Positions 5,786-14,370 of a stretch of 37,234 nucleotides of DNA are shown in pieces. Source of the stretch: an uncultured Pelagibacteraceae bacterium (lineage in GTDB: Bacteria; Pseudomonadota; Alphaproteobacteria; Pelagibacterales; Pelagibacteraceae); NCBI GenBank assembly GCA_902573705.1, contig CACGKR010000007.1, positions 1-37,234 of the forward strand, written 5' to 3'. Made by a program: the position numbers and the translations under genes. The notes under the pieces were generated by a model, which saw only the letters and a program-made list of their open reading frames with translations, did not search any database and was not told the origin of the DNA. Within the stretch, counting starts at the first letter, position 1, and each line of letters opens with the position of its first letter.

Positions 5786-8350
5786 ATGCTAAATCCTTTA
5801 AGCTTTTTCTCAAAAATCATAAAATCTAGTAATCAAAGAGAACTTGATAAAATATCTAAAATTGTTACAAAAATTAACTCTTTAGAAGAGACTGTTAAAG
5901 ATTTAAAAGACGAAGATTTTCCAGAAAAGACGGACCAATTTAAAAAAAGAATTAAAAATGGAGAAACTTTAGATGAAATACTGCCTGAAGCCTTTGCACT
6001 TGTCAGGGAAGCTTCTAGAAGAAAGCGAAATGAAAGACACTTTGATGTGCAAATAATTGGGGGGATAGTTCTTCATCAGGCGAAAATTGCTGAAATGAAA
6101 ACAGGTGAGGGAAAAACATTAACGATTACACTTGCAGCTTATCTTAATGCACTCAACGAAAAAGGAGTTCATATTGTAACAGTCAACGACTATTTAGCAA
6201 AAAGGGATTCTCAAGAAATGGGAGAAATTTATAATTTTTTGGGTCTTAGTTCGGGTTTCATTAATAATGAACAAAATGATATTGAAAGAAGGAATAACTA
6301 TAATTGTGATGTTACATACGCAACAAATAGTGAACTTGGATTTGATTATCTAAGAGATAATATGAAATTTTCTCAAAATGAAATGGTTCAAAGAGAACAT
6401 TTTTTTTCAATCGTTGATGAAATAGATTCATGTTTAATAGATGAAGCAAGAACACCTTTAGTAATATCAGGTGCTGCTGAAGACAAAACAAATCAATATT
6501 TATCTATCGATAAATTAGTCAAAAAATTAGATAAAAAAGATTATGAGATTGACGAAAAAGATAAAAATATTCTCTTAACAAATGAAGGTATAAATAACAT
6601 TGAAAGAATTTTTTCTACTGCAGGGATTTTAAAAAATAACAATTTTTATGATCCAGAAAATTTAAATTTAGTTCATCATGTAAATCAAGCTTTGCGAGCC
6701 AATCATTTATTTGTAAAAGGTAAGGATTACATTGTTCAAAATAATTCTTTAAAAATAATTGACGAATTAACAGGTAGAATTCTTGAAGGCAGACGGTTCG
6801 GTGATGGATTACATCAAGCGCTGGAAGCTAAAGAAAAAATTGACATTCAAGCTGAAAATCAGACATTAGCATCAATTACTTATCAAAATTATTTTAAATT
6901 ATACAAAAAAATCTCTGGATGTACTGGTACTGCAATTACAGAAGCAGCAGAATTTTTTGAAATTTATAATTTACCAGTAATTGTAATCCCAACTAATAAA
7001 AAAATGATAAGAAAAGATTTAAATGATCAGATATTTCGAACTGAAAAAGAAAAAAATGATGCCATTATAAAAAAAATAAGTGAAAGCCATAAAACTGGAC
7101 AGCCTCTTTTAATTTTTACTTCTAGTATTAACAAATCAGAAGTCTATTCTGCTCTATTAAAAAAAGAGAATATTAAACATGTTGTCTTAAACGCCAAAAA
7201 TCATAAAAATGAGGCCGAAATTATTGCCAATGCTGGAACAGAGGGATCTGTAATAATCACTACTAGTATTTCTGGAAGAGGTGTTGATATACAGCTTGGT
7301 GGTAAAAAAGGTTCTATAGAAGATGACAAACTTAGAGAAAATAAAGAAAAAATTAAGACTATTGGTGGATTATTTGTCATTGGAACAGAAAGAATGGAGT
7401 CAAGAAGAGTCGATAATCAAGCAAGAGGAAGATCTGGTCGTCAAGGTGATGAAGGTCATTCGGTTTTTTATGTAAGTCTTGAAGATGATTTAATGAGAAT
7501 TTTTGGATCAGAGTCGATGAATAACATATTAGAAAAATTAGGTCTAAAAGATGGAGAAAGTATTGACCACCCATGGATTAATAAAGCTTTAGAGAGAGCT
7601 CAACAAAAAGTTGAAGCAAGAAACTTCGATATTAGAAAAACTTTGATTAAATTTGACAATGTTCTTAATGATCAAAGACATGTGATTTTTTCACAGAGAA
7701 AAGATGCAATGAATAGTAATCAAATTTTTGAGTATTCTGAACAATTTTTAGAAGAGATTTTACAAAATTTAATTCATCTTAAAACTCAGAAGCTATCAAG
7801 TCCAAAGAGTAGTGAATTTGACAATAAACTAAGATCTATCTTGGGAAAAAATTTTAATGAAGACGAATTTAAGAATTTTATTTCAGCTAATGATCATGAT
7901 TTTAAAGAAAATATAACAAAAAAATTCAAAGAGTCTCGCGAGGAAAGAATTAAATTTATAGGAGAAGAGCAGTCCAAAGAAATTGAAAAAAGAGTGTTTT
8001 TACAATCAATTGATATTAATTGGAAATCACATATTCAATATTTAGAACAACTAAGACAAGTTATAGGTTTAAGATCATATGGACAAAGAGACCCTTTAAT
8101 TGAATATAAGAAGGAAGCTTTTAATTTATTTGAAAATTTATTAGATAAATTGAAACTTGATTTTATAACGATTCTAATGAATCTTAAAGTTATTGAAAAA
8201 ATTCAAGATGAAAGTTTTAAAGAAAAAAATTCAAAAATTATGAATAACCCTAAATGTCTTTTATTATTAAAAAAAGATCAGAAGATTTCTCGAAACGATA
8301 GATGTGAGGCGACTGGAAAGAAATTTAAAAATTGTTGCGGTGCGTTATAA
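5786..8350 (+). CDS. secA: Preprotein translocase ATPase SecA
   Basis: Motor ATPase that pushes unfolded preproteins through SecYEG. The 854 residues compare with 901 in E. coli. Walker A is MKTGEGKTL (GEGKT at 107-111). The DEAD-type Walker B is in SIVDEIDSCLIDEARTPL. The second motor domain carries ISGRGVDIQLGG and the QARGRSGRQGD arginine-finger region. The scaffold and C-terminal helical domains follow. The C-terminal SEC-C zinc motif is altered: RNDRCEATGKKFKNCCG has one Cys and one residue fewer than the usual CxCGSGKKYKxCH. It is divergent from argJ, and its last 6 nt overlap the convergent accA. Confidence 0.97.
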   Translation: MLNPLSFFSKIIKSSNQRELDKISKIVTKINSLEETVKDLKDEDFPEKTDQFKKRIKNGETLDEILPEAFALVREASRRKRNERHFDVQIIGGIVLHQAKIAEMKTGEGKTLTITLAAYLNALNEKGVHIVTVNDYLAKRDSQEMGEIYNFLGLSSGFINNEQNDIERRNNYNCDVTYATNSELGFDYLRDNMKFSQNEMVQREHFFSIVDEIDSCLIDEARTPLVISGAAEDKTNQYLSIDKLVKKLDKKDYEIDEKDKNILLTNEGINNIERIFSTAGILKNNNFYDPENLNLVHHVNQALRANHLFVKGKDYIVQNNSLKIIDELTGRILEGRRFGDGLHQALEAKEKIDIQAENQTLASITYQNYFKLYKKISGCTGTAITEAAEFFEIYNLPVIVIPTNKKMIRKDLNDQIFRTEKEKNDAIIKKISESHKTGQPLLIFTSSINKSEVYSALLKKENIKHVVLNAKNHKNEAEIIANAGTEGSVIITTSISGRGVDIQLGGKKGSIEDDKLRENKEKIKTIGGLFVIGTERMESRRVDNQARGRSGRQGDEGHSVFYVSLEDDLMRIFGSESMNNILEKLGLKDGESIDHPWINKALERAQQKVEARNFDIRKTLIKFDNVLNDQRHVIFSQRKDAMNSNQIFEYSEQFLEEILQNLIHLKTQKLSSPKSSEFDNKLRSILGKNFNEDEFKNFISANDHDFKENITKKFKESREERIKFIGEEQSKEIEKRVFLQSIDINWKSHIQYLEQLRQVIGLRSYGQRDPLIEYKKEAFNLFENLLDKLKLDFITILMNLKVIEKIQDESFKEKNSKIMNNPKCLLLLKKDQKISRNDRCEATGKKFKNCCGAL

Positions 8351-9442
8351 AAAAATAAATAAAGATATCAAAATAACTGTTATAAAAGATATGCCAAAAA
8401 TTAATATTTTTTTAGATTTTGGAATTTGATTAAAATTATTTGTTTGAGGTTGTAATGAACTTATTTGATCTAAATTACTTATAAAGCCTTTATTTCGTCC
8501 AATTCTTAAAAATTTATTCTTTCTATTTTCAAAAACTTCTTGAGGTGTCATTTGATTATAGATGTCCAAATTTTTAGATATGGAAGCCCTAACATTCTGA
8601 AGCATTAATTCTTTATCTCTGTGAGCCCCACCGGCTGGTTCCGAAATTATTTCATCAATTATTTCAAGTTCTAACAAATCTTTTGAAGTAAGTTTCATAG
8701 CTTTAGCAGCATCAAGCATTTTTTTTGGATCCCTCCATAAAATAGTTGCACACCCCTCTGGTGATATCACTGAATAAATTGCATTTTCCAACATAACAAC
8801 TTTGTTTGATGAGGCTAGAGCAATCGCTCCTCCTGATCCGCCCTCACCTATAATAATTGATATTGTAGGAACTTTTAATTTCATACAACATTCAATAGAT
8901 TTTGCAATCGCCTCTGCTTGACCTCTTTCTTCGGCACCAACACCCGGGTAGGCTCCAGGTGTGTCTATAAAAGATATAACTGGTATTTTAAATTTATCAG
9001 CTAACTTCATAAGGCGTATTGTTTTTCTATATCCTTCTGGTCTCATCATTCCAAAATTTCTTTCAATCCGCGAATCCAGATCTTCACCCTTTTCCTGGCC
9101 AATTATTAAAACTGATTGTCCTTTAAATTTGCCAAACCCAGTTAAAACTGACTTATCTTCTCCATAATTTCTGTCTCCTGAGAGTAAAATAAAATCCTCA
9201 AATAAATTATCTATAAAAAACTTTGATTTAGGTCTGTCCTCATGTCTAGCAACCATAGTTGTTTGCCAAGGATCTAGATTTAAGTAAATTGAATTTAATT
9301 TTTCATCTAGCTCCTTTTGTGCTTTAGAAATTCTTTGTGTATCTACTTCTGAAAGTCCACTTTGATTATATGGATCTTTTAACTTTTCAATTTCATTTTC
9401 TAAATCTTTGATATCTGTTTCAAAATTAAGATAGTTTTTCAT
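8345..9442 (-). CDS. accA: Acetyl-CoA carboxylase carboxyltransferase subunit alpha, with C-terminal membrane tail
   Basis: Alpha half of the carboxyltransferase that moves CO2 from carboxybiotin to acetyl-CoA, giving malonyl-CoA for fatty acids. Clear AccA landmarks are the N-terminal coiled coil, DPWQTTMVARHEDRP, FIDTPGAYPGVGAEERGQ, GEGGSGGAIA and SPEGCATILWRD. The core ends near residue 325 (FLRIGRNKGFISNL), which is the usual family length. About 40 extra residues follow: a polar linker (QTNNFNQIPKSKK) and a final ~20-residue hydrophobic segment reaching the last codon (ILIFGISFITVILISLFIFL). That looks like a tail anchor and is unusual for this soluble enzyme. Its partner accD is at 30166-31095. 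The ATG at 9442 lies about 20 nt from a strong candidate promoter. Confidence 0.95.
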   Translation of the reverse strand: MKNYLNFETDIKDLENEIEKLKDPYNQSGLSEVDTQRISKAQKELDEKLNSIYLNLDPWQTTMVARHEDRPKSKFFIDNLFEDFILLSGDRNYGEDKSVLTGFGKFKGQSVLIIGQEKGEDLDSRIERNFGMMRPEGYRKTIRLMKLADKFKIPVISFIDTPGAYPGVGAEERGQAEAIAKSIECCMKLKVPTISIIIGEGGSGGAIALASSNKVVMLENAIYSVISPEGCATILWRDPKKMLDAAKAMKLTSKDLLELEIIDEIISEPAGGAHRDKELMLQNVRASISKNLDIYNQMTPQEVFENRKNKFLRIGRNKGFISNLDQISSLQPQTNNFNQIPKSKKILIFGISFITVILISLFIFL

Positions 9443-9461
9443 ATTAGATCTAATTATTACA

Positions 9462-9491
9462 TATGTATGAAAAATGACAACAAAATGTCAA
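9462..9491 (-). promoter_or_regulatory. Candidate accA promoter, overlapping an inverted repeat
   Basis: On the minus strand a perfect TTGACA -35 lies at 9486-9491. TACATA at 9462-9467 could serve as -10 with an 18-base spacer, giving a leader of about 12 nt. The -35 is one arm of the inverted repeat TGACA-N6-TGTCA (9475-9490), so a regulator bound there would block it. The -10 is a weak match, and a perfect 10-base palindrome (TACATATGTA, 9458-9467) covers it. Confidence 0.45.
9475..9490. promoter_or_regulatory. Inverted repeat in the accA/glcB divergent region
   Basis: TGACA (9475-9479) and TGTCA (9486-9490) form 5-base arms around ACAAAA. Close by are two more perfect palindromes, TACATATGTA (9458-9467) and ATGTTTACAT (9491-9500). 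Three palindromes in 43 bases between accA and glcB suggest an operator serving one or both genes. AT-rich DNA makes short palindromes common, so this is tentative. A TTGACT box at 9508-9513 is a possible glcB -35. Confidence 0.35.
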
Positions 9492-9543
9492 TGTTTACAT
9501 AAATTATTTGACTTAATTTTATTAGGGTTTTAAAAATATACTA

Positions 9544-11703
9544 ATGCCAACTAATTATCAAAGCGTTAATAACTTAAAAGTTTCTGAAGAATTATTATTA
9601 TTTGTAAATAATGAATTACTAAAAGATATTGAGATAGAATCCAAAGAATTCTGGATTAAATTTGATAAAATAGTTCACGAATTAGCACCCATTAATAAAA
9701 ATTTAATTAAAGTGAGAGAAAGTTTACAAAAAAAGATTGATGATTGGCATATTACAAATAAGGGGAATGAAATTAATTTAAAAGATTATAAAAAATTTTT
9801 AAAAGAAATTGGTTATTTAAAGGATGAAGGTTCAGACTTTAAAATAGAAACTAATAATGTAGACGATGAAATTAGTCAAATTGCTGGACCACAATTAGTT
9901 GTCCCGATAATGAACGCAAGATATACTCTAAATGCCGCCAATGCAAGATGGGTAAGCTTGTATGACAGTTTATACGGAACTAATATAATTGAGTCAGATG
10001 AAGGTGGTAGTGAAAGATATGATCCTCTTAGGGGACAAGAAGTAATAAAATTTGTAAGAGAATTTTTTGATAAATTTATTCCCATTGACGGAACCAGTTG
10101 GAAGAATATTGCTGGTTTAAAAATTGAGAATAAAGATTTAATTATTCTTAAAGATGACTACCAATATAACTTAAAATATAAAGATAAGTTTATAGGTTAC
10201 CGTGGAGATGCAAGTAAACCTAATGCTATAATTCTTAAGAATAATAATCTTCATTTCGAAATTATTATTAACCCCAGAGCTTTTAGTGCTGCTCATGATA
10301 TTGCAGGGATAAGCGACGTAATAGCTGAATCTGCTGTATCAACTATTTGTGATAATGAGGATAGTGTTGCTGCGGTTGATGCTGAAGATAAAGTCGTATG
10401 CTATAGAAACTGGCTTGGATTAATGAAGGGTAATTTAAAAGTTCAGTTTGAAAAAAATGGTAAAAACTTAGAAAGAAAATTGAACCCTGATAGAAGTTAC
10501 ATTTCAAGAGAGGGAGAAAAATTGAAACTTCATGGTAGAAGTTTGCTCCTTATTAGAAATGTAGGTCATCTAATGACAAATCCCTCTATAATTTTAAAAG
10601 ATGGTAGTGAAATTCCTGAGGGTATAATGGATGCATTCATAACAACAACTGCTGCAATGCATGACTTAAAAAAAAATAGAAATTCTAGAAAAGGTTCAAT
10701 TTATATCGTTAAGCCAAAAATGCATGGACCTGAGGAGACAGATTTTACAAATTTGATTTTTTCTAAAGTTGAGGATTCGTTGGGATTAAAAAGATTTACT
10801 TGTAAAATTGGAATTATGGATGAAGAAAGAAGAACTTCAGCAAACCTCAAAGAATGTATAAGGACATTAAAGAATAGAGTTTTTTTTATTAATACAGGTT
10901 TTTTAGACAGAACCGGCGATGAAATGCATACATCGATGGAAGCAGGGCCTATGATTAAAAAAGGAGACATGAAATCATCAAAATGGATTACTGCATATGA
11001 GAATAATAATGTGGATATAGGATTAAGATGTGGTTTTTCTGGTAAAGCGCAAATAGGAAAAGGGATGTGGGCCATGCCAGATAAAATGAAAGAAATGATG
11101 GAAGAAAAAGTTAATCATTTAAAAGCTGGAGCTAATTGTGCTTGGGTACCATCTCCTACAGCAGCTTCATTACATGCTTTACACTATCATCAAATAAATA
11201 TTTTTGATGAACAAAAAAGTATTTTAAAACGTGATAAAGCTAAACTCGATAATCTTTTAACTATACCAATAGCAAATAGACCTAATTGGTCAGTCGATGA
11301 AATAAACTCCGAAATATCAAACTCTGCTCAAACACTTTTAGGATATGTAGTTAGATGGATTGATCAAGGGGTCGGGTGTTCAAAAGTTCCTGATATTAAT
11401 AATGTTGGCCTAATGGAAGATAGAGCAACACTAAGAATTTCCTCTCAACATATCGCCAATTGGATACATCATGGAATAACAACAAAATTACAAGTAATCG
11501 AAATTATGAAACAAATGGCAAAAGTTGTGGATCAACAAAATGAAGGTGATAAGAACTATGTTAAAATGAGTGATGACTTTGAAAGATCACAAGCATTTAA
11601 AACAGCATGTGATTTGATTTTTAAGGGGAAAGACCAACCGTCTGGGTACACTGAACCTCTTTTACATTATAATAGATTAAAAAAAAAAATTAATCAGAAT
11701 TAG
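9544..11703 (+). CDS. glcB: Malate synthase G
   Basis: Condenses glyoxylate with acetyl-CoA to malate, closing the glyoxylate bypass or glycolate assimilation. The 719 residues match the long G isoform (723 in E. coli), not the ~530-residue A form. Landmarks are PIMNARYTLNAANARWVSLYDSLYG, the EGIMDAFITT segment, MHGPEE followed by GIMDEERRTSANLKECI, and GKGMWAMPDKM with WVPSPTAASLHALHYH near the catalytic C-terminal half. In Pelagibacter, glcB is known to follow a glycine riboswitch. The 101 bases upstream here contain no such element. A poly-A tract (11 A) lies just before the stop, and its last 14 nt overlap recR. Confidence 0.97.
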   Translation: MPTNYQSVNNLKVSEELLLFVNNELLKDIEIESKEFWIKFDKIVHELAPINKNLIKVRESLQKKIDDWHITNKGNEINLKDYKKFLKEIGYLKDEGSDFKIETNNVDDEISQIAGPQLVVPIMNARYTLNAANARWVSLYDSLYGTNIIESDEGGSERYDPLRGQEVIKFVREFFDKFIPIDGTSWKNIAGLKIENKDLIILKDDYQYNLKYKDKFIGYRGDASKPNAIILKNNNLHFEIIINPRAFSAAHDIAGISDVIAESAVSTICDNEDSVAAVDAEDKVVCYRNWLGLMKGNLKVQFEKNGKNLERKLNPDRSYISREGEKLKLHGRSLLLIRNVGHLMTNPSIILKDGSEIPEGIMDAFITTTAAMHDLKKNRNSRKGSIYIVKPKMHGPEETDFTNLIFSKVEDSLGLKRFTCKIGIMDEERRTSANLKECIRTLKNRVFFINTGFLDRTGDEMHTSMEAGPMIKKGDMKSSKWITAYENNNVDIGLRCGFSGKAQIGKGMWAMPDKMKEMMEEKVNHLKAGANCAWVPSPTAASLHALHYHQINIFDEQKSILKRDKAKLDNLLTIPIANRPNWSVDEINSEISNSAQTLLGYVVRWIDQGVGCSKVPDINNVGLMEDRATLRISSQHIANWIHHGITTKLQVIEIMKQMAKVVDQQNEGDKNYVKMSDDFERSQAFKTACDLIFKGKDQPSGYTEPLLHYNRLKKKINQN

Positions 11704-14272: not shown

Positions 14273-14280
14273 AATTTTTA

Positions 14281-14364
14281 GGAGACTAGAACCTGAATAA
14301 CTGTCTTTACGACTGCTTCCGTTAAGATCTGGTCGGGTTCAAGCAGCACCCACCTCTAGCCTCC
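14281..14364 (-). ncRNA. ffs: Signal recognition particle RNA (4.5S type)
   Basis: About 84 nt. The termini pair perfectly over 10 bases (GGAGGCUAGA with UCUAGUCUCC, one G-U). The conserved domain IV hairpin is present: GACCAGAUC, then UUAAC, then GGAAGCAGUC. The AGCA of the Ffh-binding symmetric loop and the GAC/GUC flanking stem are intact. The tetraloop is UAAC (URRC type) instead of the GGAA of E. coli. A helix CUGCUU/AAGACAG lies below it. A TATAAT -10 sits 6 nt before the predicted 5' end. Location directly upstream of dnaX is common for this RNA in bacteria. The 3' end is only 8 nt from the dnaX ATG, and no terminator lies between. Confidence 0.93.
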
Positions 14365-14370
14365 ATTACT

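Follow-up and report, generated by a model that had tools for sequence, protein, structure and literature searches.

A riboswitch-less glcB with a predicted leaderless mRNA in a lineage of Pelagibacteraceae

Is the glycine riboswitch truly missing from the malate synthase gene glcB of this Pelagibacteraceae bacterium, and how is the gene controlled without it? Glycine-controlled malate synthase is a cited hallmark of SAR11 regulation, linked to glycine/serine auxotrophy. The SAR11 glcB switch reportedly works in the glycine-ON sense, a statement that goes back to Tripp 2009 and is taken here from papers citing it. The window analysed here is a stretch of 37,234 nt from one contig of an uncultured member of the family. 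A preliminary description of it had claimed a gap of 101 bases between glcB and accA that holds three short palindromes and a shared promoter region but none of the riboswitch core, and had proposed that control of glyoxylate assimilation may differ in this lineage. The glcB switch itself is known already, our literature search having found it described in SAR11; in Ca. P. ubique HTCC1062 it sits in the accA-glcB gap (249 nt; PMC2704228). The locus consists of:

8345..9442, minus strand: accA, acetyl-CoA carboxylase carboxyltransferase alpha; divergently paired with glcB in almost every relative whose flanks are intact
9443..9543: accA-glcB intergenic region, 101 b, without glycine riboswitch; the homologous gap has 213-293 b and a tandem RF00504 in 57 relatives
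9544..11703, plus strand: glcB, malate synthase G, 719 aa; the ATG start is kept in all 40 relatives of clades W and M (see below)

GlcB scores above the cut-off of two NCBIfam equivalogs, TIGR01345 (1066.8 bits, cut-off 989.15) and NF002825 (1168.6 bits, cut-off 565). Within the window, all Rfam families stay below their gathering scores. A scan of 9300-9700, including the stretch 9300-9560 singled out in the preliminary description, did not find the glycine riboswitch RF00504 even at E<=10, giving unrelated chance matches only. The same model recovers the riboswitch in relatives. It has no match in the window's whole assembly (G000; 759 kb, 62.6% complete), in which glcB is a single copy. 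Thus, neither of the two observations named beforehand as speaking against the claim, a match in this region or a second glcB, was made. There would be no room for even one aptamer, which takes a transcribed leader of at least about 75 nt, in a gap of 101 b with a predicted leader of 0-5 nt, and the gap folds no better than its shuffles (z 0.63). The absence of the riboswitch at this glcB is therefore confirmed. Elsewhere in the window, a small SRP RNA lies at 14275-14367 on the minus strand, between pheA and dnaX as in HTCC1062. With 34.6 bits (E 7.1e-6) it stays below the Rfam gathering score of 40 and is missed by a default scan.

The upstream regions of glcB were compared across 177 accA-glcB loci, drawn from g1, the genus group of the window, and from further genera of the same family, using a tandem-aptamer profile for the calls. 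Three loci have no upstream sequence, so 174 were judged. Fifty-seven carry the tandem switch (gap 213-293 b) and 115 lack it (gap mostly 60-150 b), while L124 has one aptamer and L056 is cut by a contig end; Infernal, applied to 15 sampled loci, agrees with the profile calls. The window falls together with G204 (98% GlcB identity, gap also 101 b) into clade W, which is uniformly switch-less, all 22 members of its core included. Its basal members L040, L042, L045, L079, L082 and L075 have gaps of 179-183 b with no detectable riboswitch relic. Among 80 loci of glcB relatives from named records, the three nearest to the window (AH-326-D09, AG-422-E14 and AG-447-K07) are switch-less, several other Pelagibacteraceae, including single-cell genomes, carry the switch, and relatives outside the family show neither switch nor accA neighbour. 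The proposal that control differs in the lineage thus holds as far as the sequence goes, given the clade-wide absence of the switch, a promoter block abutting the ATG and the loss of gcvTHP with its riboswitch (both below), but most of the Pelagibacter-genus loci examined are switch-less too. Two further observations concern the survey as a whole. The divergent accA-glcB pair is kept far beyond the switch-bearing lineages, as seen in basal loci such as L104-L111 and L205 and also in further genera of the family, and one stop codon each is reported within the matched glcB stretch of G355, G404 and G273.

Promoter-like sites were found on both strands of the gap, in agreement with the shared promoter region described before. 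Together with the three palindromes, they are placed as follows:

9508..9536, plus strand: predicted glcB promoter, TTGACT (9508-9513), 17 nt, TAAAAA (9531-9536); predicted transcription start about 9539-9544, leader 0-5 nt
9453..9480, minus strand: predicted accA promoter, TTGTCA (9480-9475), 16 nt, AATAAT (9458-9453), with TG before the second hexamer; 10/12 consensus matches
9443-9454: palindrome ATTAGATCTAAT, broken in the 98%-identical sister G204
9458-9467: palindrome TACATATGTA, broken in the sister G204
9475..9490: TGACAACAAAATGTCA (TGACA-N6-TGTCA), a conserved block overlapping the accA -35 box

The distances around the glcB promoter are strongly kept. From TTGAC to the ATG there are 35 or 36 nt in 22/22 core loci of clade W and 34-36 nt in 18/18 loci of clade M. 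In switch-bearing loci, TTGAC stands 36-39 nt from the riboswitch helix P1 (46 of 56), and P1 mostly 153-160 nt from the ATG. When the window's gap was shuffled 2000 times by mononucleotides, a TTGAC fell on the matching place once. A point against the promoter prediction is the weak -10 hexamer, TAAAAA. Since the distances from TTGAC are equal, the ATG stands where P1 stands in relatives; the leader therefore appears to be absent and the promoter retained, which predicts a leaderless mRNA. In HTCC7211, glcB transcription starts 162 nt before the ATG, at the start of P1 or up to 15 nt upstream (PMC5069720). For the window, this start and the -10 spacing (hexamer at 9531-9536) predict a leader of about 0-5 nt, within the leaderless definition of 0-9 nt, the TTGAC-ATG spacing being kept in 40/40 genomes. 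Shine-Dalgarno-like motifs (GGAG, GAGG or AGGA) are missing from the last 20 nt in 39 of 40 W and M loci. Because this is also the case in 55 of 56 switch-bearing loci, it lends the leaderless reading weak support.

Compared with the glcB glycine riboswitch of HTCC1062 and HTCC7211 (RF00504; PMC2704228; PMC5069720; PMC2211319), the window shares the accA-glcB pair, the kind of promoter spacing and the bacterial group, but it has no aptamer, the leader of about 157 nt is absent and the ATG lies at the predicted transcription start. Leaderless mRNAs are known in alphaproteobacteria, e.g. 7% in Methylorubrum (PMC9320726). The window resembles these in its predicted leader and in having no Shine-Dalgarno-like motif, and differs in that its glcB start site is predicted from sequence.

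We consider it likely that the window's lineage carries a riboswitch-less control allele of glcB, with the promoter kept, the leader absent, a leaderless mRNA and glycine-independent expression, the gcv switch being gone and the allele being mobile by recombination. In such an allele, the promoter TTGACT-N17-TAAAAA would stay at its old distance, as seen in the geometry, and the relatives' leader with its tandem riboswitch, absent from the gap, would be lost. The start codon would lie at or a few nucleotides from the transcription start, the exact position of which is a prediction. We infer that glcB expression is independent of glycine: the gene would be expressed without a glycine check, and glyoxylate from isocitrate lyase could be turned into malate whatever the glycine level. 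The one further site known for a glycine switch is gone as well, the riboswitch-gcvTHP unit being missing from the window's own genome. The allele can move between lineages via homologous recombination of a few hundred bases, as observed for one relative, and the window's own clade may have come by it through a deletion or such a swap.

The reading that a faulty assembly or a misplaced glcB start only mimics the absence has next to no probability. The assembly is 63% complete, but the gap lies inside a contig of 37 kb, is also 101 b in the independent G204 and has a similar length in more than 20 genomes, and M1 of GlcB is conserved. Incompleteness is not the cause, because the closed genomes G012 and G103 also lack the switch at glcB; independent genomes thus already refute this reading. 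It is improbable, though less extremely so, that a protein regulator replaced the riboswitch by binding TGACAA-N4-TGTC between both promoters and co-regulating accA and glcB. Clades W and M both keep this block, most switch-bearing loci having AAAAAAGGCAATAAAATG in its place, and by our own count the perfect dyad TGACA-N6-TGTCA occurs in 17/22 of the window's core clade. However, it occurs in 1/18 of clade M, broken in the other 17 though the sequence stays, and the left half of TGACAACAAAATGTCA coincides, on the other strand, with the accA -35 box TTGTCA, a side of the promoter kept among relatives as TTGTCA or TTGCCT. No regulon is visible, because the dyad occurs once in the 759-kb assembly; on this ground, the reading of the dyad as operator of a regulon was rejected. 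All three palindromes of the preliminary description do exist, but they are poor candidates for a replacement regulator site: the first two are broken in G204 (there ATGAAATCTAAT and ACATAAGT) and the third overlaps the accA -35 box. ATTAGATCTAAT and TACATATGTA are read as chance in AT-rich DNA.

The window's lineage may instead never have had a glcB riboswitch, the switch having been gained elsewhere from the gcvT riboswitch. This is unlikely but deserves some weight. The basal g1 loci (L104, L106-L111) and most of g7 are switch-less, and the glcB aptamers L113 and L296 fall among the gcvT ones in the aptamer tree. On the other hand, all other glcB riboswitches, including L201, L290 and L294 on the outgroup side, lie outside the gcvT group, although the deep branches are weak. 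On the accA+GlcB tree, the clade of the window lies nested, with switch-bearing groups on either side, and a hybrid single-aptamer locus (L124) and a decayed one (L046) indicate loss in progress. The glcB and gcvT aptamers separate with two changes on this short-sequence tree with its weak deep branches. Therefore, apart from L113 and L296, most glcB switches may go back to a single old origin, at least one having been copied later from gcvT, deep support for this being weak.

The switch state requires at least eight changes on the GlcB+AccA tree. A single loss common to W and M was rejected (W, M, L077 and L119 as one clade on accA+GlcB, p-AU 1.5e-8). The switch-less promoter blocks of W and M look homologous; since the two are not one clade on their flanking proteins, recombination, re-gain or parallel change is needed, and the shared block fits allele exchange, re-gain of the switch or parallel change alike. 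Three forms give hints on how the switch disappears. L124 (G174, 99% complete) has a single full-length glcB aptamer of 55.5 bits, its 5' part taken from aptamer 1 and its 3' part from aptamer 2, joined across the shared core GGAGCAA...AACTCTCAGGC. It is apparently a natural single aptamer formed by fusion of the tandem aptamers, as a slip between copies would give. L046 keeps a tandem switch with core changes (36.9 bits). L127 (G236) is placed among switch-bearing relatives, yet its gap is 91/95 identical to that of the switch-less L070 of clade W, with 96-99% identity between about -95 and +300, counted from the ATG; its flanks are 90-97% (accA side) and 82-90% (glcB side) identical to the switch-bearing sisters L139 and L161. 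Judged by these identities, a recombination tract of about 450 b put the switch-less allele into a switch-bearing lineage in G236, barring an assembly chimera.

As to the second switch site, 46 of 57 genomes chosen as lacking the tandem switch at glcB (the single-aptamer G174 included) have a glycine riboswitch above the cut-off, which, where checked, lies before gcvT. In the sister G204 (97% complete) no RF00504 was found, as in G000, and in both genomes searches found neither gcvP nor a gcvT ortholog, only paralogs of about 28%. On contig C8 of G000 (L360), EamA (8330-9214) directly adjoins an FAD amine-oxidase-like gene (7095-8330). These are the neighbours of the riboswitch-controlled SAR11 gcvTHP operon (RF00504) at the expected place, but unlike in that operon no riboswitch, gcvT, gcvH or gcvP lies between them: a clean absence. 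The same joint is present in G204 and, as an independent case, in G264 and G004 of clade T; L361, L362 and L363 are the loci concerned. Because both known riboswitch loci are present and empty in G000, the absence is shown for the species despite a completeness of about 63%. The window's genome thus has no riboswitch-bearing SAR11 glycine cleavage system, lacking the gcvT ortholog, gcvP and RF00504 at the locus. No gcv-less genome has the switch at glcB, and gcvP is kept in 20/20 genomes that do have it, the single-aptamer G174 included. A statistical link between both losses was set aside, as it rests on about four events. At this second site, G200, G169, G208 and other clade-D genomes have one RF00504 match versus two elsewhere, the second aptamer being degenerate or lost.

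Two metabolic reasons for the loss of the switch were considered and rejected. A loss of isocitrate lyase does not fit, as aceA matches are present in 71/80 genomes including G000, where glyoxylate can therefore be made from isocitrate. Nor does regained serine synthesis: a match to serC_2 (TIGR01365, phosphoserine aminotransferase) was found in 0/80 genomes tested, with or without the glcB switch, so that this auxotrophy marker does not separate switch-bearing from switch-less lineages.

A broader proposal is offered tentatively, with roughly balanced prospects that lean slightly against it. glcB control may be a recombining two-state locus, riboswitch versus leaderless allele, swapped as a tract of a few hundred bases, in which the switch-less state would precede and permit repeated excision of riboswitch-gcvTHP, leaving species without any glycine riboswitch. 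A literature search, with most subscription journals out of reach, found no SAR11 report of glcB switch absence or recombinational exchange. If the proposal is true, metabolite control of the malate-synthase branch point would be gained and lost horizontally.

The glcB switch is absent from most Pelagibacter loci sampled, and the glycine cleavage system, too, has been lost in some species, including that of the window. In the window's bacterium, glycine levels probably no longer govern central carbon flow. SAR11 glycine physiology as known from HTCC1062 or HTCC7211 is thus not simply transferable to switch-less lineages, and close relatives with and without the switch provide natural comparison pairs.
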